Source: Sphingorhabdus sp. (GTDB taxonomy: Bacteria > Pseudomonadota > Alphaproteobacteria > Sphingomonadales > Sphingomonadaceae). From it: DNA of 64,000 nucleotides. Below the pieces are notes generated by a model. The model searched no databases, was not told the DNA's origin, and saw only the letters and a list, made by a program, of their open reading frames with translations. A program made the translations under genes and the position numbers. How positions within the stretch are numbered: the first letter of the stretch is position 1; each line of letters begins with the position of its first letter. Below, in pieces: positions 31,634-63,716 of this stretch. Location: positions 372,001 through 436,000 of the forward strand of contig JANQNO010000008.1 in the NCBI GenBank assembly GCA_028279555.1, in the 5' to 3' direction.

Positions 31634-32118
31634 GCCGCTGCCTCCTCATTGCTGGATGTCTCCATCCCGGCAGCAACCTTGATCGCCTTTTTGATCCGCC
31701 CATACATGCCGCAGCGGCAGACATTGCCGGCCATCGCCGCATTGATCTGCTCATCGCTGGGATTGGGATTGCGTTTCAGCAGCGCCGCCGCCGACATCAG
31801 CTGCCCGGACTGGCAATATCCGCATTGCGGAACCTGTTCGCTGATCCAGGCCTGCTGCAATTTGCTGAGTGTGCCATCCTCACCGGCCAGCCCCTCGATC
31901 GTCGTGACGGCCTTGCCATCGGCCTCCGAAACGGGCGTCGAGCAGGATCGTACCGGCTTACCATCAAGATGCACCGTGCAGGCACCGCATTGCGCGATCC
32001 CGCAGCCAAATTTGGTGCCTGACATTTCCAGCTGTTCGCGCACGACCCAGAGGATGGGCGTGGCGGGATCGACATCAACCTCCGCCTGCTTGCCATTGAC
32101 GGTCATGGTGATGCTCAT
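31630..32118 (-). CDS. (2Fe-2S)-binding small subunit, IorA type
   Basis: 162 residues carrying two [2Fe-2S] clusters. The plant-ferredoxin-like cluster is in [15 protein letters not shown] and a following RSC; the alpha-helical cluster is in QCGYCQSGQ and CRCGMYGRI. It passes electrons from the molybdenum centre of the partner encoded downstream to the cytochrome. No FAD-binding subunit is present, which is the IorAB pattern and fits a cytochrome acceptor instead of NAD. The ATG is preceded by GAGAGAA. Confidence 0.92.
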
Positions 32119-51266: not shown

Positions 51267-51812
51267 TCAAACCGCCATCTCGTGGTGCTGTGCATAGAGC
51301 TTCTTGCGCGCATAATGCAGCCGGGTTTTGACGGTGTTGGCCGGGCAACCCAGAATGTCGGCAATATCCGACAGCGGCAATTCCTCATAATAGAAGAGCT
51401 GGACCACCTCGCGGTGCTGCAGGCTGAGCTGAGCCAATGCCGTCTTCAGCCATTCGGCATCGCTGAGCGATGCAGCCTGCTGCTCGGGATCGGGGCTCTC
51501 GTCGATTTCAACCGGACCGGACTGCGCCTGCAAGTCGACTTTTTGATCGCCGAATTTGCGCAGCCAGTCGACCGCCTTGTTGCGCACGACGCGCCTGATC
51601 CATCCCGCCGCATTGCCGCGCGCGGAATATTTGGCGGCATTCTTCCACAGGTCGAGAAAGGCCTCATCGACAACATCCTCGGCCGCCTCCCGGTCGCCGG
51701 CCAGGATTGCCATCGCATAGGCGGTGAGCCGCTTCTGGTGAATGCGGTAATAATCCGAAAAGGCCGCGCGGTCCCCCTTCGCGATCCTCGCAAGCATGTC
51801 GCTATCCTGCAT
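51267..51812 (-). CDS. ECF-type RNA polymerase sigma factor
   Basis: 181 residues from the ATG at 51812, behind GGGAGGAAAA. Region 2 contains FSDYYRIHQKRLTAYAMAI and AEDVVDEAFLDLWKNAAKY (-10 recognition); region 4 contains LSLQHREVVQLFYYEELPLSDIADIL and a helix-turn-helix CPANTVKTRLHYARKKL (-35 recognition). It follows the methyltransferase-like gene by 21 bases in the same operon. The likely anti-sigma partner is the membrane protein at 59011-59679, in the facing operon. Confidence 0.93.
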   Translation of the reverse strand: MQDSDMLARIAKGDRAAFSDYYRIHQKRLTAYAMAILAGDREAAEDVVDEAFLDLWKNAAKYSARGNAAGWIRRVVRNKAVDWLRKFGDQKVDLQAQSGPVEIDESPDPEQQAASLSDAEWLKTALAQLSLQHREVVQLFYYEELPLSDIADILGCPANTVKTRLHYARKKLYAQHHEMAV

Positions 51813-51833
51813 GATTTTTCCTCCCAGCATGAT

Positions 51834-52583
51834 CTATGCCGCCTGTCTTTTCTGCATCTCGCTCCAGGCCAGGCTGCCGCTGGCGTCATGGAACTGCGCG
51901 AATGAAAGACCGGCTGCTGCCGCGATCTGCGCGAGCGCATCGTCGCGGTGGCATTGAACGGTTTGTTTTTCACAGATGATCTTCCAGCCCATCCCGAGAT
52001 GGTTGGGCGCGAAGCTGGACAGGGTCAGGCAGCCCGAAGCCGCCAGCAGCGCGGCGGCGCGGCCGACAAATTTTTGCAGTTCGTCGCGTGTCATCGCATC
52101 GGCCAGCGCAGGCGCGAGAATGCGGTCGAATTTCCGCCCCAGCGTCTCGGCCGCGGCTATCTCGGCTACACAATGCAGATCGGCAAGCGGCTCCTTGGCG
52201 AGAAAGTCTTCTACTTTCCGGCCCGGCGAACCGATCAAGCAGATGGCCTTGCCCGATTTGGAGGCCTCTTCGATCACCGAAAGTGTCAGTTTTTCCCGCA
52301 GCCTCTGCCCGCGCTCTGTCGACAGTCTGGACACGGCATAATGGAGCCTGTCTGCGGTGGTGGAGCCCGGTTCTTCAGGAGCCGTTCCATTGCCGCGCAG
52401 CTTGACGAAGCGCGCCAGCGGATGCGCCTGAAGCAGCCGGTTCAGCCGGGCGGTATCGATCCCCGCCGCCAATGCACCATCGAGCGTGCCGGCGAGCAGC
52501 AATATGGCTTCGTCAAATCCTGCCGTTTCCACCTGGAGAAGCAGCTGATCGAAAATCTGTTGAAGATGGGTGTCGCTTTGCAT
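51834..52583 (-). CDS. Methyltransferase-like protein of unknown function, cotranscribed with sigma gene
   Basis: 249 residues from ATG 52583. The C-terminal half has the beta/alpha rhythm of a class I SAM-dependent methyltransferase core: AICLIGSPGRKVEDFL (where GxGxG would be expected, not present), ADLHCVAEI, FDRILAPALADAMTRDELQ and LLAASGCLTLSSFAP. The N-terminal half is helical and has no family I recognise. It may have lost SAM binding. It is the first gene before the ECF sigma factor and divergent from the regulator gene at 52707. Confidence 0.65.
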   Translation of the reverse strand: MQSDTHLQQIFDQLLLQVETAGFDEAILLLAGTLDGALAAGIDTARLNRLLQAHPLARFVKLRGNGTAPEEPGSTTADRLHYAVSRLSTERGQRLREKLTLSVIEEASKSGKAICLIGSPGRKVEDFLAKEPLADLHCVAEIAAAETLGRKFDRILAPALADAMTRDELQKFVGRAAALLAASGCLTLSSFAPNHLGMGWKIICEKQTVQCHRDDALAQIAAAAGLSFAQFHDASGSLAWSEMQKRQAA

Positions 52584-52706
52584 GCCAAACGCAATAAGTC
52601 GGCAGCGTCGGGGCGATGTGAGCGCGGCGTCCAAAAAATGTGAAAAAGCCCGTGAATTTTACATTCAAGCTGATATTCGTGGAGTCAAACGGGGGAGCAA
52701 CAATCC
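52584..52706. promoter_or_regulatory. Divergent promoter region of the ECF/P450-DyP island
   Basis: 123 bases between two divergent operon starts. The stretch 52620-52690 is AT-richer than its surroundings. The ribosome-binding site GGGGGAG precedes the 52707 start. No convincing ECF -35 element of the GGAAC kind was seen. Confidence 0.4.
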
Positions 52707-54386
52707 ATGTTGCCAGATGGCAGTGCCTTCAAACTGGCATTGTTGGGGCCGTTCCGGTTGGAAAGCCCTGACGGGTCGCGAATTGAAATCAGGAGCAAGC
52801 GCGGACAGGCGCTGCTCGCGATGCTCGCTGCAGCGGAAAATGGGGAACGCAGCCGCAGCTGGCTGCAGGAAAAATTGTGGGGATCAAGAGCGCCGGAGCA
52901 GGCCAATGCCAGCCTGCGCCGGGAACTGTCCAATCTCAGAAAACTGACCAACGCCGAATATGATCTGCTCGAATCCGACAATGGCCGGGCGTGGCTCGAT
53001 CTAGACCTGATGGATGTCGATATCCGCACACAAAATGGGCATTCGCTCGACGAGTTCCTGGAAGGGCTGGATATTCCCGGCGAAGAAGCCTTTGAAGACT
53101 GGCTGCGCGCAGAGAGGGCGGCGATCCGCGGGCGGATGGAGGCTGGGCGAAGCGAAAGCGGAGACGCCCCATATCCGCCCCCTGCAAGCCAGATCGACAT
53201 CAGGGAATTTTCCGAGAAGCCGGCAATCGCCGTGCTGCCCTTTCAAACCCACGGCGAAGACCCCTTGCTCGAACAAATTGCGCATGGTTTGAGCGAGGAT
53301 CTGATCAATCATCTTTCGCGGCTCCGGTGGTTGCCTGTCATTGCGCGCAGCTCGAGCTTTGCAGACGATCTGAGACATGTCGATGCCGACGAGGCCGGCA
53401 AGCAGCTTGGCGCGCAATATATTGTCGAAGGCACCTTGAGAAAGACCGGAGAGCAGGCGACGCTGATGCCGATGCTGATCGACATGCGCAGCGGCCAGTC
53501 GATCTGGTCTGAAAAAATCGACCTGCCGGCGGTCGATGAGGCGGATGCACTGGAACGGCTGACCACCGAAATTACCACCGCATTGGGAACGCAGGTTGAT
53601 ATCAGGGAGCAATCGCGCGCGCAGCGCAGCGCCCAGAGCGGTTCCATCAATCAGCTGATCTGGCGCGGCCGCTGGCATCTGAACCGGCTAACCAAGGAAG
53701 ATTTCGTTCAGGCCGAAGCGTATTTCGAAGAGGCGCTGCGGCTGGAGCCCAACTCGCCCGAAGCGCTGATCCAGATGACCTGGGTCAGGCTCTGGAATTT
53801 ATGGTTTGCCCGCGGCAGCGAAGCGAAAATTCGCGAAGTGCGCAAAATGGCGCAAAAGGCAATCATCGCCGACTATGACGATGCGCGCGGCCACATGCTT
53901 GCCGGAATAGCCGAGACATGGCTGAAGCAGCCCTTGCGCTCGCGGGCGCTTCTTGAAAGGGCGATCGAACTCAACCCCAGCCTGGTGCTCGCGCATGCGC
54001 ATTACGGCGCAACCTTTTTCTTTGCAGGCGAGCCTGAAAAGGCAATCGGACCGATCGATATCGCCATCCGGCTGAGCCCGAACGACCAGCAGCTATTTTA
54101 TATTCTTGGCGAACGGGCGATGGCCAATCTGATGCTCGAAAATTATGGCGAGGCCATAGCCGACGCCGATCAGTCGATCCTGCGGCGCCCCGGCTACTGG
54201 TATGCCCATATGGTGAAGGCCAATGCGCTTGTCGGAGCCGAGAGAATGGAGGATGCCAAGACGGCCATGCAGGAACTGATGGCGTCCACGCCAGACTTTG
54301 AACCGGAGTATATTCGCTGGCTCCCCTTCCCCGATTCAGGCTGGCCGGACAAGCTGCGTAACGGATTGAACCTTTTGCTGAACTAA
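52707..54386 (+). CDS. Winged-helix regulator with TolB-like and TPR domains
   Basis: 559 residues. N-terminal winged helix of the OmpR/SARP type (about 8-95: LALLGPFRLESPDG, RGQALLAMLA, LQEKLWG, ASLRRELSNLRKL). A TolB-like/FlgO-like domain follows (about 170-310, PAIAVLPFQTHGEDPLLEQIAHGLSEDL), as in many adenylate-cyclase-associated and SARP-like regulators. TPR repeats fill about 315-550. No transmembrane segment is evident, so it should act in the cytoplasm. It is the first gene of the block and ends 32 bases before the P450-DyP gene, which it probably controls. Confidence 0.88.
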   Translation: MLPDGSAFKLALLGPFRLESPDGSRIEIRSKRGQALLAMLAAAENGERSRSWLQEKLWGSRAPEQANASLRRELSNLRKLTNAEYDLLESDNGRAWLDLDLMDVDIRTQNGHSLDEFLEGLDIPGEEAFEDWLRAERAAIRGRMEAGRSESGDAPYPPPASQIDIREFSEKPAIAVLPFQTHGEDPLLEQIAHGLSEDLINHLSRLRWLPVIARSSSFADDLRHVDADEAGKQLGAQYIVEGTLRKTGEQATLMPMLIDMRSGQSIWSEKIDLPAVDEADALERLTTEITTALGTQVDIREQSRAQRSAQSGSINQLIWRGRWHLNRLTKEDFVQAEAYFEEALRLEPNSPEALIQMTWVRLWNLWFARGSEAKIREVRKMAQKAIIADYDDARGHMLAGIAETWLKQPLRSRALLERAIELNPSLVLAHAHYGATFFFAGEPEKAIGPIDIAIRLSPNDQQLFYILGERAMANLMLENYGEAIADADQSILRRPGYWYAHMVKANALVGAERMEDAKTAMQELMASTPDFEPEYIRWLPFPDSGWPDKLRNGLNLLLN

Positions 54387-54418: not shown

Positions 54419-57400
54419 ATGCCGCAATCAAAATACTATAAAACGGTGGAACAGCGTCTGGCCAAATATGGCGGGCCGCGAAGCGAAGCGCTGCCGCCCT
54501 TCGACCTGCAGCAGATCGCAGCCAAAAGCTGGTTTCAGGCGCAGAAATCGAAGGCAACGCAAGCGCTTCTAAAGCCAATTTACCGCTTCGGCCGCGGTTT
54601 CATGCCGGTCATGAATCTGGCAGGGATAACGCATATCGTGCGCGACAGCGAAGTGCGACAGGTGCTGGCAAGGCCGCAGGATTTCCCCGTCCCCTTCGGC
54701 CCCGAGATGAAGGCGCTGGCGGGCGGTGCGACATTCGTGCTGGGGCTCGAAGGCGAAGAACATACGCGCCAAAATGCGCTAATCCACAAAATCGTCCGCC
54801 CGTCGGATGCGGAGCGGATCGTCAAGCTGGCAAGGAAATTCAGCGAAGCTCTCATCGAAAACAGCGCGGGCCGGATCGACGCCGTCAACGATTACTTCAA
54901 GCGCGTGGCAGCGGAAATCTGCGTTCACTATTTCGGTTTCTCGGTGCAGGATTCCGACGCTTTTGCAGACTGGACCATCGCCACCTCGGCGCTGCTCTTT
55001 GCCGACCCCTATGGCGACGAGAATACCGCCGACCTCGCCTTCAATGGCGCAGCGCGGCTGCGCGCCGTTATCGACAATTCGGTTTCGCGGCTAAAGCGGC
55101 TGATGGAAAAAGGCGCGCTTGCAGAAGATGGCGGCGACACACTTCTCGAACGGCTTCTGACTTTGCAGCTGAGCGGCGAAGAGCAAATCACGGATGCTGA
55201 AATCCGCGCCATATTATATGGCCTGGTTGCAGGTTTCATTCCGACCAACACGCTGGCCGCCGCCAAGATGCTCGAGGAGCTTGTCCGCAGGCCCGATGCC
55301 TACAAATCGGCCACGGAAGCAGCCGCCAAAGGCGAGCGAGAGACACTGAAAAAGATACTGCTGGAGGCAAGCCGGCTCAATCCGGGGTTGGCACCCGGCC
55401 AATTCCGCTATTGCCCCCGCGACACGCATATCGAGGTCGACGGCAAGCAGAAGAAAATCAAGGCCGGCTCGCTGCTGATGGTCTCGACCATGTCGGCGAT
55501 GCGCGACAAAAGGGCGTTCGCGAAGCCGCAAAAATTCTGGCCCGAGCGCACTGGTGAGGACGGCGAATGGGCCGAACCCGATCTGGTTTTTGGTGCCGGC
55601 ATTCATGTTTGTATCGGCAAACATCTCGCCATCGAGCAGATTACCGAGACGGCAATGCTGCTGCTTGCTCAGAAATCCGTCCGCCCGGCACCGGGCAAAG
55701 CCGGCAGAATGCGGCTTTTGGGGCCGGCACCGCGGCATATGGAATTCGTCTATGAGACGCCTGCTGCCAAACAGTCGATGTTTATCGTACTGGCCGATGT
55801 CGAAGACGGCATCTCGAAAGAGCAGGCGGACGGCGTCATCGCGCGGCTCGGCAACCCGGCAGGAAGCGGGATACGCGCCGCGATGAATGCCACTGGCATT
55901 GTCCATTTCACCTCGCTCTCGACGATCCAGACCGAAAAGGCGTTGAAGCTGGCTTTCGAACTCAGCGTCGATGGCGAGATTGACGATGCGCTGGCCTTGA
56001 TCGCGCAGCATGCCGGTGAGTATCTGCGCCCGGCATTCGCGCTTGCGGGCCTGGCGGAGAATGACGATCTGGCCCAGTTCATGTCCCGCCATGTCGTCAC
56101 CTTGCATGCCAAAATGTGGGGCGCGACGGGGCGCAACTATAACGGCCTCACCGAATTTCCCGTCGCCAAGGTGGAAAAACAGGCGCGCTTCGCCGATTTT
56201 GCAGGCCGCGTCCTGCGCGACTATGTGGCGACCGAAACCGCCCGGGGAAGCCACCCGACGCTGGTGCTCGGCCATCTGCGGCGTATCCTGCGGCAAGATT
56301 CGGTGCTCAAACGCGAAGCCACACCTGCACAATTGGCGCTGATGCAGGAGGCCGACCACGAAGGCTTCGATGCCTTCCAGCTGGTGACGCAGAAAATGCG
56401 GCTGAAACTGACCGCCTATCGCGAGCGGTCCCACTGGCAACGCGCCCTGGATTTCCTCAAGACCCGCGATGCCTTTGTCTTCTACAATCCGTTTTTCCTG
56501 CTCTTCGCGCTGTCCTGTTTTCTCTTCTGGCCGGCCATCGGCGGATCGCTGCTTCCCAAAATCCTGATCGTCGCGATGCTCGCCTTTCTGTCCGCGACGG
56601 CGCTCGGCGCGCTCATAATCGGAATCTTTCTTGCGCTGGTCCGTTTTCATGAGGAACGCGACAGCGTCTATGAAGATGATCCGCCGCTCGCCAAGCTGCG
56701 CGCGATCATCGCGGCAGAAAATCCGCCAGGATATGAGCAGAACCACGTTATGGCGGTGGGCAAGCTGAAACCCGGCCTGTTCAGAAAGATGGTCCATGCC
56801 TTCTCGCTCTGGTCGATCGGCATGTCGGTCAAACACTGGTTCCGGCCCGGCCTGATCAACCATATGGGAACAATCCACTATGCCCGCTGGTGGCGCATTC
56901 CGGGCACAGAGACGGTTTCCTTCTACTCCAATTTCGACGGTAGCTGGGAGAATTATCTGGAAGATTTCATCATGCGCAACCGCTGGGGGCAATCGGTGGG
57001 GTGGAGCAACTGGCAGGGGTTTCCCAAAACCCGTTTTCTCATGCTCGGCGGGGCAGGCGATGCCGACGGGTTCAAGCGCTGGGTCCGCATCGTCCAGCAG
57101 ATTGCGCCCTTCTGGTATTCGCGCTTCCCGGACCTGGCGACCGAGCGGATTCGCAATAACGGGATGATCCATATCGGCACCGGCCTGGCCGAAAGCGCAA
57201 CCGAAGCGGAAGAATGGATACGCTGTTTCAGCTCGATGCCGCGGCTTGAGAACCGGATCGAGCATGACGAGGTTCAGGCGCTGGTCTTCAGGGGCATGAA
57301 GCGGCTTCCCTATTCGGCCTGCCTTGCCTTGCAATTGCCGCCCGCGGGAAGCGATCTCGGCGAATATCTATGCTGGATCAGGGGCAAGCCCATGCGCGGC

Positions 57401-59014
57401 GAGAATTTTGTTCCCCATCGCAATCATGACGCCATCAAACTTCTGATCGAAGAGGGCATTCTGGTGCCGGTTCCGCGGCCCGAAGGCCAGCAAAAGGAAT
57501 ATGCGCTGGCCCACGCATTGACCGTTACCTTCGGCGACCGCCCGCTCGATGGCGGCCATTCTGCCGGTCTGAACGAAGCCAGCCCCGCCAATCTGCGCGA
57601 CGCGCAATCTTCCATGGCGCAGGCGGCCATATTCGGCCTTTCTGCCGCCGGCATCGGCAAGTTCGATGCCCCTCACATGGGCGAAGAAGAACTCGCCGAA
57701 TGCTTCCCGGACAACTTCCGGATGGGCATGGCCGCGCGCGGCCGCGCGCTCGGCGACATCGCGGAGAATGCCCCTGAAAACTGGCGCTGGAATGATGATC
57801 CCCGAGAGGCGGATGCGACGGAAGCCGTCCTGATGCTCTATGCCTCAGACCGGCAAAGCCTCGCCAGGATGGAGCAGGCGCATAGCGCCCTGCTTGAAAA
57901 TCATGGCGGGCGGCTACTCACCAAAATAGATTGCGCGCCGGCATGGCCGGACAAACAACGCGCCGATTTCGAGCATTTCGGCTATCGCGACGGCATTTCG
58001 CAGCCCGCCATCAAAGGCAGCAGCCGGGCAACGAAAATGGTCCCCGAACGCGATGTGATCGAACCGGGAGAATTCATCCTCGGCTATGGTGACAGTATGG
58101 GATATTATCCCGCCTCTCCGCTGCTTCCCGAGGAAGCGGACATGGCTGGCGCGCTGCCGGTCGTGATTGGAGAAAATCTCTCCAAATATCCCGATTTCGG
58201 AAACCGCAATCTTGCCGATGCGCCGCGCGACCTGGGCCGCAATGGCAGCTTTCTGGTCATCCGCCAGCTCAAACAGGACGTCGAGGGTTTCGACAAATTC
58301 GTCGGCGATGCAGCCGCCAGCCTCAACAAGGGCGGCTTTGGCGACCTTTATAAGGTGGTCGGGCAAAGCCCCGACAAGGAATGGGTGAAGGCAAAGCTGA
58401 TGGGCCGCTGGACCAATGGCAGGCCGCTGGTCGGCAATCCGGTTTTCAAACAATCATCGCCTGAAAGCCTCGCCGCGGAAACGGAGAATGATTTCTCGTT
58501 TGGAGAGGACGACCCGCATGGCCTTGCCTGCCCCTTCGGCTCGCATATCCGCCGCACCAATCCGCGCGACAGCAAGCTGCCCGGCGATGAAGGCGCGCTC
58601 GAAATCTCCAACCGGCACCGTATCCTGCGGCGCGGCCGCCCCTATAGCGATGCGAAGACGGGCGAGAAAGGCCTGCTCTTTGCCTGCTTTTGCACCGATA
58701 TCGAACGGCAGTTCGAATTCGTGCAGCAATTCTGGTCCAATGCGCCTTCCTTCCACGGGCTGAAAGACGAGCCCGACCCGATCATCGGCGCTTGCCCCAT
58801 CGATCCGGCAACGGGCGAAAGCAGGGACCGCCTGTTCACCATTCCGACGGCGAGCGGCCCGGTGCGGATCGAGGGCCTCAAAAACTTCGTGCAGATGATG
58901 GGCGGCGGCTATTTCTTCGTGCCCAGCCGTTCGGCGCTTAGCTGGCTCTCCGATACGGCGCTTTATGCGCCTGTGCGCCGCGCAAGCACCGGCAAGCAGG
59001 ATGTATCGACATGA
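54419..59014 (+). CDS. Cytochrome P450 - membrane segment - DyP peroxidase fusion protein
   Basis: 1531 residues. Cytochrome P450 domain about 20-445: heme-ligand loop FGAGIHVCIG with Cys398, E-x-x-R at Glu316/Arg319, I-helix AGFIPTNT (271-278) in which the usual acid before Thr is Pro275. Two or three transmembrane helices lie at about 685-745. A pair of similar segments, about 491-530 and 817-853, flank the membrane part. The C-terminal half (about 950-1515) is a full-length, class P-like DyP peroxidase: catalytic Asp1191 in GYRDG, proximal heme ligand His1376 in FGSHIRRTNPR, and an Arg in RILRRG. No signal peptide, so both heme domains probably lie in the cytoplasm. GAGGGG precedes the ATG; the stop overlaps the next start (ATGA). 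Two-heme enzyme of unknown substrate. Confidence 0.9.
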   Translation: MPQSKYYKTVEQRLAKYGGPRSEALPPFDLQQIAAKSWFQAQKSKATQALLKPIYRFGRGFMPVMNLAGITHIVRDSEVRQVLARPQDFPVPFGPEMKALAGGATFVLGLEGEEHTRQNALIHKIVRPSDAERIVKLARKFSEALIENSAGRIDAVNDYFKRVAAEICVHYFGFSVQDSDAFADWTIATSALLFADPYGDENTADLAFNGAARLRAVIDNSVSRLKRLMEKGALAEDGGDTLLERLLTLQLSGEEQITDAEIRAILYGLVAGFIPTNTLAAAKMLEELVRRPDAYKSATEAAAKGERETLKKILLEASRLNPGLAPGQFRYCPRDTHIEVDGKQKKIKAGSLLMVSTMSAMRDKRAFAKPQKFWPERTGEDGEWAEPDLVFGAGIHVCIGKHLAIEQITETAMLLLAQKSVRPAPGKAGRMRLLGPAPRHMEFVYETPAAKQSMFIVLADVEDGISKEQADGVIARLGNPAGSGIRAAMNATGIVHFTSLSTIQTEKALKLAFELSVDGEIDDALALIAQHAGEYLRPAFALAGLAENDDLAQFMSRHVVTLHAKMWGATGRNYNGLTEFPVAKVEKQARFADFAGRVLRDYVATETARGSHPTLVLGHLRRILRQDSVLKREATPAQLALMQEADHEGFDAFQLVTQKMRLKLTAYRERSHWQRALDFLKTRDAFVFYNPFFLLFALSCFLFWPAIGGSLLPKILIVAMLAFLSATALGALIIGIFLALVRFHEERDSVYEDDPPLAKLRAIIAAENPPGYEQNHVMAVGKLKPGLFRKMVHAFSLWSIGMSVKHWFRPGLINHMGTIHYARWWRIPGTETVSFYSNFDGSWENYLEDFIMRNRWGQSVGWSNWQGFPKTRFLMLGGAGDADGFKRWVRIVQQIAPFWYSRFPDLATERIRNNGMIHIGTGLAESATEAEEWIRCFSSMPRLENRIEHDEVQALVFRGMKRLPYSACLALQLPPAGSDLGEYLCWIRGKPMRGENFVPHRNHDAIKLLIEEGILVPVPRPEGQQKEYALAHALTVTFGDRPLDGGHSAGLNEASPANLRDAQSSMAQAAIFGLSAAGIGKFDAPHMGEEELAECFPDNFRMGMAARGRALGDIAENAPENWRWNDDPREADATEAVLMLYASDRQSLARMEQAHSALLENHGGRLLTKIDCAPAWPDKQRADFEHFGYRDGISQPAIKGSSRATKMVPERDVIEPGEFILGYGDSMGYYPASPLLPEEADMAGALPVVIGENLSKYPDFGNRNLADAPRDLGRNGSFLVIRQLKQDVEGFDKFVGDAAASLNKGGFGDLYKVVGQSPDKEWVKAKLMGRWTNGRPLVGNPVFKQSSPESLAAETENDFSFGEDDPHGLACPFGSHIRRTNPRDSKLPGDEGALEISNRHRILRRGRPYSDAKTGEKGLLFACFCTDIERQFEFVQQFWSNAPSFHGLKDEPDPIIGACPIDPATGESRDRLFTIPTASGPVRIEGLKNFVQMMGGGYFFVPSRSALSWLSDTALYAPVRRASTGKQDVST

Positions 59015-59679
59015 ATTGGGAAGATGCCAGCGCGCTGGAGGCTCTGCTTCCCGAATATATCAGCGGCACGCTTTCTGCCGCGGATACGCAGCGCGTGCGC
59101 GAGGCGCTGGAGAAATCGCCGGAATTGCGCGCCGCCTATGAGCGCGAATGGCATCTGAATGCACGCATCAAAAGTGGGATGAATATGATGGCAGACGAGA
59201 CCGACAAGAACAGCCGCAAGAGGCATGACGATCTGATGAAGGCGGCTGCGGCCGACGATGCCGCCTCAAGCGATGCTGGCAAAGAAAAAACGACCCTCGC
59301 GCACGCGCTTTCTTTCCTCAGCCCGAAAAAATGGCATCCCGCCATATCGCTTTCGGTGGCGCTCGCCGTTCCCTTGCAGGCCGCGGTGATCGCCGGGCAG
59401 GCAACGGCCATCGCTTCGCTGGAGGATGAAAATTTCCGCCTCGCCTCGGGGCCCTGCCCAGATGAAAGCAGCAAAAGCAGCATTATTGCTGAGTTTTCGG
59501 GTGATGCGCGCTGGCAGGATGTTGCAGCCCTGCTCGATGACGAAGAGCTTATCATATACAAACGCGGCGACTTCGGTGTGCTGACCTTGCGCAGCAAGAA
59601 GGAGGGGACCGCGCTGAACAACCAGATTGAAAGATTGAAGGCGTCTCCGCTTGTGACCAGTGCAGCACCGGCGAAATGA
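59011..59679 (+). CDS. Anti-sigma factor-like membrane protein
   Basis: 222 residues. A cytoplasmic N-terminus with the typical anti-sigma layout (LLPEYISGTLSAADTQRVREAL, then a helical stretch to about 60), one membrane segment at about 108-130, and a periplasmic C-terminus (about 135-222). No HxxxCxxC zinc motif. It would hold the ECF sigma factor encoded at 51267-51812. The periplasmic part (RWQDVAALLDDEELIIYKRGDFGVLTL, ending IERLKASPLVTSAAPAK) resembles the I9-like prodomain pattern of subtilases, and it is followed at once by a subtilase gene. ATGA overlaps on both sides. Confidence 0.8.
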   Translation: MNWEDASALEALLPEYISGTLSAADTQRVREALEKSPELRAAYEREWHLNARIKSGMNMMADETDKNSRKRHDDLMKAAAADDAASSDAGKEKTTLAHALSFLSPKKWHPAISLSVALAVPLQAAVIAGQATAIASLEDENFRLASGPCPDESSKSSIIAEFSGDARWQDVAALLDDEELIIYKRGDFGVLTLRSKKEGTALNNQIERLKASPLVTSAAPAK

Positions 59680-61445
59680 GGAAATTGCTGTTTTTCTTTT
59701 TGTTGGGCATGCTCTTGGCAGGGCTGGTACCAATCTCCTTCACGCAAAATTTGGAAGCCACCCGTTTAGCCCAGGCCGACACTGGCCAAAAATGCAGAAT
59801 CGTCGAGAAATGTCCGCCCGCGGTTTGCCGGGATGAGCGGCAATGTTCGCCCGGCAAATGTCAGACAATCAAGAATTGTGCCCCTCCGTCTTGTAAAGTT
59901 GAACGCAAATGCTCGCCCGGCAAATGCCGGATGGTGGAAGAATGCGGACCCGCCGGCTGCAGGGCCGTAAGAAAATGCGAACCGGAAAGTTGCCGCGATG
60001 TAAGAAATTGCAGGCCGGGGAAATGCACTCAAACGCAAAAATGCGCGCCGCCGGTTTGCAGGCCGGTCAAGAAATGCACGCAGGGCAAATGCCAGAAGAT
60101 CAGGGAATGCCAACCCGCCGAAAAACCGCCGGTCCAGATAGTCGAGACCAACCCCGTGTCCGCAGCCGATGAGCTTTCACCTGCCGAACCTGTGAACACA
60201 GTAGCGGAAATCGAGCCCGACCTCGGCCCGCTCGAAATGGCGGACCGGGACATTCCCGAATTTGTGCCCGGGCAAATTCTCTATTTCTCCAGGGCTCCGG
60301 CTTCGCGCCTTTCGCAGATCGCCGCAGCCGCCGATGTGGCAATCATCGAAACCATCCTGCTCGACCAGATCGGCATATCGATGATAACGGCCAGATTAAA
60401 GCCGGGTGATACCGTTGGCGGCGCGGGCGCAAGGCTGGAAAAACAGAAGGATGTGCTGTGGGCGCAGCCCAACCATTATTTTCAGCTGCTTGGACAGAGT
60501 TCGCGCAGCCGGGGCCTCGCGCTGCACGGAATAGGTACAGCTGGCGACCGGCAGAAATCAGGCTCGATCGTTATGATAGACAGTCTGGTCGATACCTCCA
60601 ATGCAGCGCTGGCGGGCGCGGCGATCGAGCAAAAGGGCTATGGCACAAAGGGGCGGCCCGATGCGCATGGCACGGCGATCGCCGAATTGCTGGTCGGCAC
60701 GGGCGACTATGCCGGAGTCGCACGCGGCGCAAAGCTGATCAGCCTGGCCGCTTTCGAACCTACCGAGCAACGCACATGGCTCTCGCAAACCCGCTATCTG
60801 GCGCAAGCGATGAATGAGGCATCGCGGCTGCGGCCCAATGTCGCCAACCTGTCCTTCGGAGCAAATGCCAGCGACCGGATTTTGACCCGCCTGCTCAACA
60901 AGCTGGAAAGCAGGGGTATCTGCGTTGTCTCTGCTGCCGGCAACGGCAATGGCGGCAAAGTGCTGTTCCCGGCGCGGCTTGCGACCACGCTTGCGGTGAC
61001 CGCGATAGACGGGCGCAAACGCGCCTATCGCTATGCCTCCAAGGGCCCCGAAATCAATGTCGCGGCCTGGGGCGTCAATCTGAATGCTGCCGTCCCCGGC
61101 GGCAGGCGCTCGGTTTCCGGCACGTCCTTCGCAACCGCCATCGTGTCGGGATCGTTGCTCGGTCTCGATGCCTGTTCGGGCGAATATAGCCCCAAGGCAA
61201 TGCGCGATTTCGTCACGCGCCATGCGCAGGATCTGGGCGAGAAGGGTCATGACGATATCTTTGGCGCTGGCCTGTTTCGCCTGTCGGAAGACACAGCAGA
61301 AAAGCAATCGAATGATGAAACTACGCCAAAATCCGAGGAGGAAGCGGGCGTTCCGCTTGCCGCCTGGCTTGGCGGTGCGGGCCTGCTACTGGCCGGGCTT
61401 TTCCTGCTGCTCTTCAGGCGGCGACGCAAAAAGCCGGAAGCCTGA
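59676..61445 (+). CDS. Membrane-anchored S8 subtilase with N-terminal cysteine-rich repeats
   Basis: 589 residues. Signal peptide (about 1-28), then a region at 40-145 made of ten 11-residue units of pattern C-x5-C-x4, with 20 cysteines. An acidic linker and a prodomain-like region (about 195-270, ending LWAQPNHYF) lead to the S8 domain: Asp302 in VMIDSLVD, His331 in DAHGTAIAELL, Asn in SAAGNGNG and Ser484 in VSGTSFATAIVSG. A C-terminal membrane helix (about 560-580) and an RRRRKK tail anchor it in the inner membrane, facing the periplasm. It is the last gene of the four-gene block and may cleave the anti-sigma-like protein; this is inference. Confidence 0.88.
   Translation: MRKLLFFFLLGMLLAGLVPISFTQNLEATRLAQADTGQKCRIVEKCPPAVCRDERQCSPGKCQTIKNCAPPSCKVERKCSPGKCRMVEECGPAGCRAVRKCEPESCRDVRNCRPGKCTQTQKCAPPVCRPVKKCTQGKCQKIRECQPAEKPPVQIVETNPVSAADELSPAEPVNTVAEIEPDLGPLEMADRDIPEFVPGQILYFSRAPASRLSQIAAAADVAIIETILLDQIGISMITARLKPGDTVGGAGARLEKQKDVLWAQPNHYFQLLGQSSRSRGLALHGIGTAGDRQKSGSIVMIDSLVDTSNAALAGAAIEQKGYGTKGRPDAHGTAIAELLVGTGDYAGVARGAKLISLAAFEPTEQRTWLSQTRYLAQAMNEASRLRPNVANLSFGANASDRILTRLLNKLESRGICVVSAAGNGNGGKVLFPARLATTLAVTAIDGRKRAYRYASKGPEINVAAWGVNLNAAVPGGRRSVSGTSFATAIVSGSLLGLDACSGEYSPKAMRDFVTRHAQDLGEKGHDDIFGAGLFRLSEDTAEKQSNDETTPKSEEEAGVPLAAWLGGAGLLLAGLFLLLFRRRRKKPEA
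59793..60110 (+). repeat. Ten tandem 33-base units coding the C-x5-C-x4 repeat
   Basis: Bases from the first to the last cysteine codon of the array. Nine full 33-base units plus seven codons of the tenth. Each codes C-x5-C-x4 with recurring Pro-Gly-Lys or Pro-Pro before the next cysteine. The units diverge at third positions, so this is an old coding repeat rather than a recent expansion. It is not a CRISPR array. Confidence 0.9.
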
Positions 61446-61502: not shown

Positions 61503-63716
61503 TCAGAGCGGTTGCGGAATGGCGTTGATGACCTTCGGGGCCTTGTGCTGGATGGGCGGCATGCTGAAATTCCTGATGCTGATCGTTGTGATCTGGCCGG
61601 TCTTTGCATTGTAGATTTCGACCGGCCTGTATTTGGTCATCGGCGAGGCATTATTCTGCCGCGGGACGCGGAAGATCAGCGATGTGCCGGTGCAATCATT
61701 ATTCATCCCGCCGCCATTGTGAATGGGACGCAGATTGGTGGAAAAGCTGTACCATCTGTCCAGCTTGACCGGGGCAGTCTGCCAGAATGTCGGTGTGCTG
61801 TTGCCGCCAACGCCGACGGTAAACTGACCCTGGTTGATCGATGCCGAACCGAGCGGAGCGCCTGCAACCGGCAGCTGCGTCGAGGCAGGCGTTGCGCCAT
61901 TGCCGCGATCCTTCAGGCTGGCAATCAGCGTCGCGCCGGAAACTTGTGCATTCTGGCTTTGTGCATCGCTGACATATTGCTGCAATGTGGCTTCGACCTT
62001 GGCCCGGTTCATGAGAACAGATGAAGACGCGTTGACCCCCTGCGTCACGAGCGGAAACTCGTCGAGCAATTTTGCCTGGTCGCTATAGGGCGTGCAGGCA
62101 TCGGGGACGATCACAACCGAGACAAGCGATGTCCCCTGCGAAACCGCACCTAGCGAATCCGTCGCCTGCAAGGTGAAATTCAGATTTGTCGGCGTTGAAA
62201 CGGTCGGAGCGGTGAATGTCGGCGTCGCGCTGCTTGGATTGCTTAGCGTTACCGCAGGTCCAAGCGTCTGTGTCCATTGGTAGCTGAGCGGTGTGTGATT
62301 ATCCGGATCCGAAGACTGGCTTGCATCCAGCTGCACCCCCGGACGGCCGCTATAAACATAGCTCCAGTTGACACCGGGAATGGCGGTTGGCGGCTGATTG
62401 GCCTGAACATTGCCGGGCTTGTAGTGAGCAAGCTTGTTGGCTGTTCCGCCCGGAATATTGCCGAGCACACCGACGGTCGCGCGGCTGTTCACTTCCTGGA
62501 TTACCTGCGCGGCGCTGAGCGAGGGTTGCTCGCTCCAGATCGAGGCAGCGATCCCGGCTACCATGGGCGCGGAAAAGGAGGTCCCGTTGGCGGGGCCATA
62601 GCTTCCGCCATTGCGCGCGCCATTCACATTCACGCCGGGCGCGTGAAGATCGACGCAGTTGCCCCTGTTGGAAAAGGTCGCACGCTGGTCGTTGATCGCA
62701 CTCGCGCCCACGGTCAGGATATCCATGACCATATTGGGCGAACGGATACAGGCAAGCCCGTAATTGTTACCCGAGGACGTTACGAAAACGACGCCCTGAT
62801 TCACTGCATCGACCGCGGCATTGTTGAGGCTACCGATGGTACCGGGGAACGAGACGCTCAGATTGATGACGGCGCGCCCGGTCTTTGTGTTGAGCACATG
62901 GTTGATGCCGGCGATAACCTCGAACTGGCTGCCAAAGCCAGCACATGTGGCAACCTTCAGATCATGTATCTGCGCGCTGCGGGCAATCCCGCGCGTTGCC
63001 CCTGCCGCAAATGACGCCGAATAGGTTCCGTGATTGTCGCAGGCCTGTGCGGTTTCATTCGTGAAATTCATTGTTTCGATCACGCGCCCGCCAAATTCTG
63101 CATGCGATGCATCCACGCCGGTATCCAGAATATAGATATGGATACCCGATGCGCCGACATATTCATGGCTCGAATCCAGTGGAAGGTTGACCTGATCGAT
63201 CCGGTCGCTGCCCCAATTTTGCGGATTTGTATCCGGGCTATCAAGCGTCGGTGCCACTTCCTTCTCGACATCGTCGATGCGGGAATCGCGCTTCAGCGCT
63301 TCGACCTGCTGGCCGGTCAGCCCCTTGACCTGAACGACATTGACCACGCCGGTGCTTGCCCGGATAGAGCGCAGGCTGCGCTGCGACGCCCCCACACGCC
63401 CCAGCAATTCCCGCGCCAGACGCAGTGCCTGGGCATCTGCGGTACGCTGACGGCCCCTGCCCTTTGGAAAACGCACATTTTTCGACAGGACCAGAATATG
63501 GCCCTGTTCGCTGGTTTCCTGGGCTCGAACCGGAGCCGGAAGCCGACCGCGCGGGTTTGCCCGGACCGGCCGTGCCTCCCGCGCTTGTGCGACCGATAGA
63601 ATCTTGCGATTCTCGCTTTCCCCGCCTTTCGAATTCTCGGCCGACAGCGCAGGCACTGTCGCGGCAGCGATGCAGATCGAGGCCGATGAGAGCATACAAA
63701 ATTTTTTATGGGGCAT
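61503..63716 (-). CDS. Secreted S8 subtilase, proteinase K-like, with PKD-like domain
   Basis: 737 residues. Signal peptide (about 1-26), prodomain (about 70-160), S8 domain with catalytic Asp198 (ILDTGVD), His229 (NHGTYSASF), oxyanion Asn in SSGNN, and Ser380 (NGTSFSAPMVAG). Cysteines near 226, 258 and 323 resemble proteinase K-type disulfides. After about residue 440 comes a PKD/Ig-like domain (LDASQSSDPDNHTPLSYQWTQ) and a C-terminal region of about 180 residues without a family I can name. No membrane anchor. AAGGAA lies seven bases before the ATG. It converges on the cysteine-rich subtilase gene. Confidence 0.9.
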   Translation of the reverse strand: MPHKKFCMLSSASICIAAATVPALSAENSKGGESENRKILSVAQAREARPVRANPRGRLPAPVRAQETSEQGHILVLSKNVRFPKGRGRQRTADAQALRLARELLGRVGASQRSLRSIRASTGVVNVVQVKGLTGQQVEALKRDSRIDDVEKEVAPTLDSPDTNPQNWGSDRIDQVNLPLDSSHEYVGASGIHIYILDTGVDASHAEFGGRVIETMNFTNETAQACDNHGTYSASFAAGATRGIARSAQIHDLKVATCAGFGSQFEVIAGINHVLNTKTGRAVINLSVSFPGTIGSLNNAAVDAVNQGVVFVTSSGNNYGLACIRSPNMVMDILTVGASAINDQRATFSNRGNCVDLHAPGVNVNGARNGGSYGPANGTSFSAPMVAGIAASIWSEQPSLSAAQVIQEVNSRATVGVLGNIPGGTANKLAHYKPGNVQANQPPTAIPGVNWSYVYSGRPGVQLDASQSSDPDNHTPLSYQWTQTLGPAVTLSNPSSATPTFTAPTVSTPTNLNFTLQATDSLGAVSQGTSLVSVVIVPDACTPYSDQAKLLDEFPLVTQGVNASSSVLMNRAKVEATLQQYVSDAQSQNAQVSGATLIASLKDRGNGATPASTQLPVAGAPLGSASINQGQFTVGVGGNSTPTFWQTAPVKLDRWYSFSTNLRPIHNGGGMNNDCTGTSLIFRVPRQNNASPMTKYRPVEIYNAKTGQITTISIRNFSMPPIQHKAPKVINAIPQPL

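Follow-up and report, generated by a model that had tools for sequence, protein, structure and literature searches.

The locus described here raises the question of whether a cytochrome P450 and a DyP peroxidase encoded in one reading frame form a genuine two-heme enzyme and, if so, how such an enzyme might work. The gene occupies positions 54419–59014 on the plus strand of the window, i.e., the whole stretch of 64,000 nucleotides from Sphingorhabdus sp. that was analysed (assembly GCA_028279555.1, contig JANQNO010000008.1), and consists of a single open frame of 1531 codons. An earlier note on this DNA had recognized a P450 signature (Cys398, Glu316/Arg319) and a DyP signature (GYRDG with Asp1191, and His1376) in one chain of 1531 residues, and both domains proved to be complete, with matches to the P450 and DyP folds, respectively. 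From the N terminus onwards, the protein is composed of the P450 domain (residues 1–450, positions 54419–55768, with the fold match over residues 42–446), a domain designated MID1 (residues 451–682, 55769–56464), a two-helix membrane hairpin (residues 683–747, 56465–56659), a domain designated MID2 (residues 748–944, 56660–57250) and the DyP domain (residues 945–1514, 57251–58960), all on the plus strand. The search for this architecture elsewhere, as proposed in the note, recovered the same fusion in 56 of the best 80 related loci, which rules out an artefact or a frame break between the domains; the P450-MID-DyP architecture is nearly certain. Structure models of the fusion gave pTM values of 0.88 and 0.85 over several domains, suggesting that the parts may pack together in a defined manner. 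Antisense to the gene lies a 706-codon open frame (55214–57334, minus strand), and relatives also carry long antisense frames, which most likely reflect an effect of codon composition.

The conservation of the P450 domain was assessed in an alignment of 52 rows, which covered 51 of the 56 fused loci in addition to the window protein. The heme-thiolate Cys398 (55610–55612, plus strand), located in an FGxGxHxCxG loop, and Arg319 of the ExxR motif were kept in 52/52 rows, and Glu316 in 51/52. The distal (I) helix reads G-F-I-P-T-N in the window protein (residues 272–277, 55232–55249, plus strand) and G-[F/L/Y/T]-x-P-T in all 52 rows; a proline thus stands at the usual acid position throughout, and Thr276 is retained at the usual alcohol position in 52/52. 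The assignment of Pro275 to the acid position and of Thr276 to the alcohol position is based on an ungapped alignment with EryK and on split homologues reading IDTT, and one alignment of the unrelated P450 of the same genome (L002) is shifted by one residue relative to this register. The acid-alcohol pair of the P450 I helix is usual and not obligatory, and EryK, an O2-dependent monooxygenase, has Ile at the acid position in the ungapped alignment; Pro275 is therefore no proof of peroxide use, and the choice between O2 and peroxide is undecided by this residue. In addition, five of the split-form P450s described below retain the ordinary Asp-Thr pair. In a separate observation, a Lys-Tyr pair at the N terminus (residues 5–6) is kept in 51/52 and 50/52 fused proteins, respectively, and is followed by 20 variable residues.

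Among known enzymes, P450BioI, CYP134A1 and CYP113A1/EryK share the P450 fold, the Cys ligand and the ExxR motif with the fusion P450, which differs from them in its low identity (13–22% in the structural list), in the proline at the acid position and in being fused; it also differs from soluble bacterial P450s in that no linked redox partner was recognized by a limited motif search. The CYP152 peroxygenases use H2O2 and have Arg-Pro in place of the usual acid-alcohol pair. An alternative register, with Pro275 at the Thr position and a resulting likeness to this Arg-Pro pair, was dropped in view of the ungapped EryK alignment, the distance to the following helix and the IDTT split homologues, so that the pair of the fusion family is Pro-Thr as opposed to Arg-Pro. 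The fusion also falls outside the CYP152 group by profile, as the curated NCBIfam CypC model NF053744 reached only 11.8 bits (E 0.064) against a cut-off of 600.

The DyP domain is equally well equipped. Across an alignment of 69 rows, Asp1191 was found in 68 (the remaining row has Glu), His1376 in every row and Arg1401 in 68; we take these to be the catalytic Asp of the GXXDG motif, the proximal His and the distal Arg, respectively. The DyP of Deinococcus radiodurans (PDB 8re2/8re3), presumably of class V (C/D type), is a chain of 442 residues. The DyP domain of the fusion is about 130 residues longer and, unlike the Deinococcus enzyme, forms the C terminus of a five-part membrane protein.

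The two segments around the hairpin (residues 451–680 and 746–944) had no Pfam match at E 0.1. MID2 is strongly conserved and carries the motif SN(F/Y)DGSWExYLEDF. In the models, MID1 and MID2 each show the order strand-helix-strand-strand-helix that is typical of ferredoxin-like domains, and from this order both may be placed in the ferredoxin-like fold class, the rows of the fold search spanning P450 and DyP. Whether MID1 and MID2 are two halves of one duplicated module was considered by profile comparison: hhalign found no significant match with 10-row profiles, and with 69-row profiles it gave E 8e-4 for a single pair at a probability of 24%, which is no more than suggestive of a duplication. 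No homology to either half of DyP was found for MID1 or MID2 by profile comparison, and an 11-column match between MID2 and the N-terminal half of DyP was a product of overlapping cuts.

The earlier note had also placed a membrane segment between the heme domains, with one domain on either side. A membrane segment was indeed found, in the form of the hairpin, and the heme domains do flank it along the chain; across the membrane, however, the prediction is different. Exactly two hydrophobic segments lie between MID1 and MID2 in 44 of the 56 fused proteins, and in these 44 the mean number of Lys/Arg per 20-residue flank is 3.2 and 3.9, as compared with 0.95 in the loop. A two-helix hairpin with positive flanks leads to the prediction that both heme domains are tethered to the membrane on its cytosolic face. 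Five of the 56 proteins have one hydrophobic segment between the MID domains and seven have three to six, and 19 of the 56 have one or two extra segments outside the MID1-MID2 gap, of which the window protein has none; by this simple measure, the topology is not uniform across the family.

To describe the family, named bacterial and archaeal genomes were scanned with the MID2 alignment, by which 238 relatives were confirmed, and the best 80 of the 238 (L042–L121) were analysed with HMMs built for P450, MID1, MID2 and DyP. The 56 loci with all four in one frame include L050, L072, L087 and L108, which are shortened at contig ends. In 10 of the best 80 loci, a separate P450 gene lies directly upstream of a MID-DyP gene, and each of these ten P450 genes passed the cut-off of the Pfam P450 model, L077 barely so (23 bits vs 22.8). 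No P450 was found upstream of the MID-DyP gene in a further 12 of the 80, indicating that the DyP part can occur without the P450. Two loci stand outside these classes: L042, on a contig of a metagenome-assembled genome, has its P450 in one frame and its MID-DyP part in another and was not counted as fused, and L079 is cut by the contig end. Against the family P450 profile, the adjacent P450s of L077, L094 and L111 scored below the unrelated P450 of the Sphingorhabdus genome, which suggests that different P450s were recruited or that these genes are chance neighbours; the profile scores of L088, L101, L105, L114, L115, L116 and L119 are inflated, because these rows were built into the profile. 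The recurring fusion and adjacent-gene pairing, together with the conserved catalytic residues, support the functional coupling of P450 and DyP that the note had suggested. One split-form P450 (L116:5174–7150) has about 260 extra N-terminal residues, which by eye resemble the start of a glutathione S-transferase and had no Pfam match at E 0.1. Among the loci without a P450, the MID-DyP genes of L091, L095, L096 and L107 (Ensifer/Rhizobium) stand divergently beside one conserved gene, whose L091 copy encodes a protein with trypsin-like and DNA/RNA non-specific endonuclease parts.

Most hosts belong to the Alphaproteobacteria (Sphingomonadales, Nitrobacteraceae, Phyllobacteriaceae, Rhizobiaceae and Hyphomonadaceae). 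Four records fall outside this class: two are betaproteobacterial, one is gammaproteobacterial and one is labelled as a planctomycete, and three of the four come from metagenome assemblies. Within the same taxonomic family, 16 of 149 genomes had a match at E 1e-30, and nine of the 16 (the genome of the window counted) carry the fusion in one long frame; MID2 was found at E 1e-10 in 16 of 398 genomes of an even phylum sample (again counting the genome of the window). Both sets share members with the 80 loci.

The same taxonomic family also contains split forms. In L034, L036, L037 and L038, a MID2-like protein, a membrane-hairpin protein, a DyP and a P450 are encoded by neighbouring genes, with the P450 gene of L034 on the strand opposite to the other parts. 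The MID2-like genes are solid by HMM (E 1e-13 to 3e-15), whereas the separate hairpin proteins reached only E 0.004 to 0.27 against the MID1 HMM and are called MID1-like on the basis of gene order and of a C-terminal hairpin seen by eye. In L039, a MID1-hairpin-MID2 protein adjoins a DyP gene, and in L035, a P450 gene is followed by a gene for MID-hairpin-MID-DyP. The window fusion is thus composed of parts whose counterparts stand as neighbours in these genomes. A tree was built from 78 MID2-DyP rows, namely those of the window, of L035 and of 76 among the 80 loci (leaving out L042, L043, L079 and L096). On it, the fused state requires two changes, as compared with a mean of 19.4 after shuffling, and the window belongs to a well supported cluster of 34 fused rows. 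As this is a quick tree with SH-aLRT support only and a midpoint root, gain and loss of the fusion are indistinguishable on it.

The upstream regulator also keeps its position. A TPR regulator, probably of SARP type, is encoded at 52707–54386 on the plus strand, 32 bp upstream of the fusion, and by BLAST clustering a homologue lies directly upstream on the same strand in 53/53 fused loci with enough upstream DNA (L050, L068 and L108 start too close to the contig end); the homologue is in two frames in L046, and only its end is present in L054, L064 and L072. An adenylate/guanylate cyclase domain was detected in 17 of 51 homologues scanned (that of the Sphingorhabdus genome, that of L114 and 49 others), and many of those without it begin with a SARP-like segment. 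The window regulator matched AfsR weakly (E 5.2e-6, far under the cut-off), and BTAD was found in 2/51 homologues.

Upstream of the regulator, a GTGA direct repeat (52640–52656, plus strand, 50 bp before the regulator gene) is a candidate binding site, SARP proteins being known to bind direct repeats spaced about one helical turn apart. GTGAAAA was present in all eight close upstream regions compared. Among 57 regulator upstream regions, GTGA direct repeats occurred in 14 on the forward strand and in none on the reverse, as compared with an average of 0.76 and at most 4 in 200 mononucleotide shuffles. When the 52 regulator frames with 450 aa or more were sorted by ad hoc motif tests, the repeat accompanied 13/27 SARP-like, 0/17 cyclase-like and 1/8 other regulators. 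The strict form of the repeat had three forward matches in the Sphingorhabdus genome, with 0 and 1 in the backwards-read control; the second lies inside a 344-aa frame. The third falls in a region where both strands carry open frames, with a GlmU-like frame about 340 bp downstream of it. The repeat may accordingly have a second genomic target besides the promoter of the fusion regulator.

Other neighbours are found mainly in particular lineages. A divergent ECF sigma factor gene (51267–51830, minus strand) accompanies the locus only in close Sphingomonadales relatives and adjoins a gene for a conserved protein of 266 aa (51834–52634, minus strand) without a Pfam match at E 0.01. Downstream, a zf-HC2 anti-sigma-type protein (59011–59679, plus strand) overlaps the end of the fusion by 4 bases and is followed by the next gene of the close-relative unit, an S8 subtilase (59676–61445, plus strand). 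Counting the window, this Sphingomonadales unit comprises the divergent ECF sigma factor in 9 loci, the anti-sigma-type gene in 11 and the S8 protease in 10. In 16 loci, mostly of Phyllobacteriaceae, a gene of a Crp-family cluster is convergent just downstream, one member of the cluster having been checked with Pfam. By eye, the S8 subtilase has a Cys-rich repeated N-terminal stretch with units of the KC..VE.C.P..C type and, at its C terminus, a membrane helix with Arg/Lys after it, reminiscent of a sorting tail. A second S8 subtilase of 737 aa with a PKD-like domain (61503–63716, minus strand) faces the first across a short gap. The G + C content per 2 kb is 0.48–0.55 over positions 1–24000 of the window and 0.57–0.64 over 24000–64000, which possibly marks an island boundary.

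As the note had stated, no ferredoxin or reductase gene was seen near the fusion, that is, within about 8 kb in the window; one Fer2 gene of the window lies 22 kb upstream. In the flanks of the best 80 loci, no ferredoxin was recognized by a motif search that finds two of the five Fer2 loci of the Sphingorhabdus genome; its regular expression matched in 18 of the 80, and by eye these matches were other frames of known genes or were not ferredoxin-like. That genome encodes five Fer2-domain proteins, one of them at 31918–32103 of the window, and five P450s besides the fusion. Fer2 proteins were also found in all 24 genomes of relatives that were searched, so that supply by a ferredoxin in trans is possible. 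Two further P450 matches of this genome lie close together at the end of the contig that holds the window (G000:C6:461651–463447), about 30 kb downstream.

Starting from the observed architecture, the conserved catalytic residues, the family-wide pairing of P450 with MID-DyP and the fixed position of the regulator, the best explanation, to which we assign a probability of about one half, is a two-heme oxidase at the cytosolic face of the inner membrane. The fusion would be anchored to this face by its hairpin, with MID1 and MID2 holding the heme domains at the membrane and perhaps aiding substrate binding. The P450 and the DyP, both catalytically equipped as judged from their sequences, would cooperate on a shared lipophilic substrate, by consecutive steps or by one providing the intermediate that the other uses. 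The P450 would most likely work without ferredoxin and reductase, fed by H2O2 or an organic hydroperoxide, and the DyP would need the same kind of oxidant. The upstream regulator, of SARP or cyclase type, would control the operon. We count in favour of this explanation the complete and conserved domains, the pairing, the regulator, the hairpin, the failure to recognize a ferredoxin, the I-helix proline and the pTM values, and against it the retained threonine, the split P450s with Asp-Thr, the three adjacent P450s that score low against the family profile, the Fer2 proteins in trans, the loci without a P450 and the non-uniform topology.

Of the two main rival readings, the first takes the P450 for an ordinary monooxygenase served by a general ferredoxin in trans, with the DyP oxidizing its product further or clearing H2O2 from uncoupling; the second, an oxylipin-type reading, is taken up below. 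P450s with unlinked redox partners are common, Thr276 is kept in 52/52 rows, five split partners have the usual Asp-Thr pair, and the genome holds five other P450s and five Fer2-domain proteins. We nevertheless regard this as less probable than the peroxide-fed enzyme, although a serious possibility, since the acid is replaced by proline in every fused member aligned, no redox partner was recognized in the 80 neighbourhoods by the limited motif search, and fusing a DyP merely to clear H2O2 would be odd, as catalases do so. Alternatively, the fusion could have no metabolic role and could instead sense redox state at the membrane or act in signalling with the SARP/cyclase regulator. The regulator homologue adjacent in 53/53 fused loci and the convergent Crp-family gene in 16 would fit; however, both heme domains conserve their complete sets of catalytic residues, beyond the need of a sensor, and an enzyme under ordinary control would show the same operon position, so that this reading appears very improbable.

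The fusion could also be a bacterial counterpart of the fungal dioxygenase-P450 proteins, in which one heme would form or activate a lipid hydroperoxide and the P450 would rearrange it to an oxylipin-like product. The membrane hairpin, the failure to recognize a redox partner and the acid-less I helix are all in keeping with this. We consider it unlikely, however, as no DyP is known to act as a fatty acid dioxygenase and no cyclooxygenase-type Pfam domain was found in the fusion at E 0.01. Moreover, the dioxygenase of fungal DOX-CYP proteins is N-terminal to the P450, whereas the P450 is N-terminal here, and this reversed order sets the window fusion apart from the DOX-CYP type. A search of the Sphingorhabdus genome for a lipoxygenase gave no match, nor did the same search in 14/14 control genomes, so that this negative carries no weight. 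The overall logic is nonetheless that of the fungal fusions, in which the P450 is described as self-sufficient and as an isomerase of hydroperoxides (PMC13049297). These fungal proteins and, reportedly, oomycete CYP5619 (PMC5919972) likewise combine a peroxidase-type heme domain and a P450 in one chain; they are eukaryotic with a cyclooxygenase-like domain, whereas the window fusion is bacterial with a DyP.

The idea of a peroxidase-P450 fusion is thus already known, and what is real in the present case is a conserved P450-MID-DyP membrane family built from different parts. Within the part of the open-access literature covered, no description of a P450-DyP fusion was found, and a CYP family number or a remark may already exist; in a survey of alphaproteobacterial P450s (PMC8197338), the words fusion, fused and peroxidase are absent from the main text. 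The public plasmid records examined name such proteins by one half, as 'cytochrome P450' or 'Dyp-type peroxidase domain-containing protein'. An example is SARO_RS19865 on pNL2 of Novosphingobium aromaticivorans, a whole-protein homologue (36.4% identity over 95%) that sits directly downstream of a gene annotated as a SARP family regulator and is itself annotated only as a Dyp-type peroxidase domain-containing protein, without a recorded function.

In most studies, P450s and peroxidases are treated as independent enzymes, and a P450 as a rule depends on redox partners. A conserved family in which the two are joined at the membrane, with both active sites intact and no partner gene recognized close by, would offer a natural way of testing whether peroxide handled by the fusion partner can feed a P450. 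The family also draws attention to MID1 and MID2, both conserved and unmatched in Pfam, and its compact operon is open to direct expression; its split versions are natural dissection constructs. Our most far-reaching suggestion, which is speculative, is that these fusions may represent a bacterial class of membrane two-heme oxidases that make an oxidised lipid or lipid-like signal without a reductase, each copy being switched by its own SARP or cAMP-type regulator. If true, this would be a prokaryotic counterpart of cyclooxygenase/P450 oxylipin synthesis, assembled from unrelated parts, namely a P450, a DyP and a new ferredoxin-like pair of domains on either side of a membrane hairpin.
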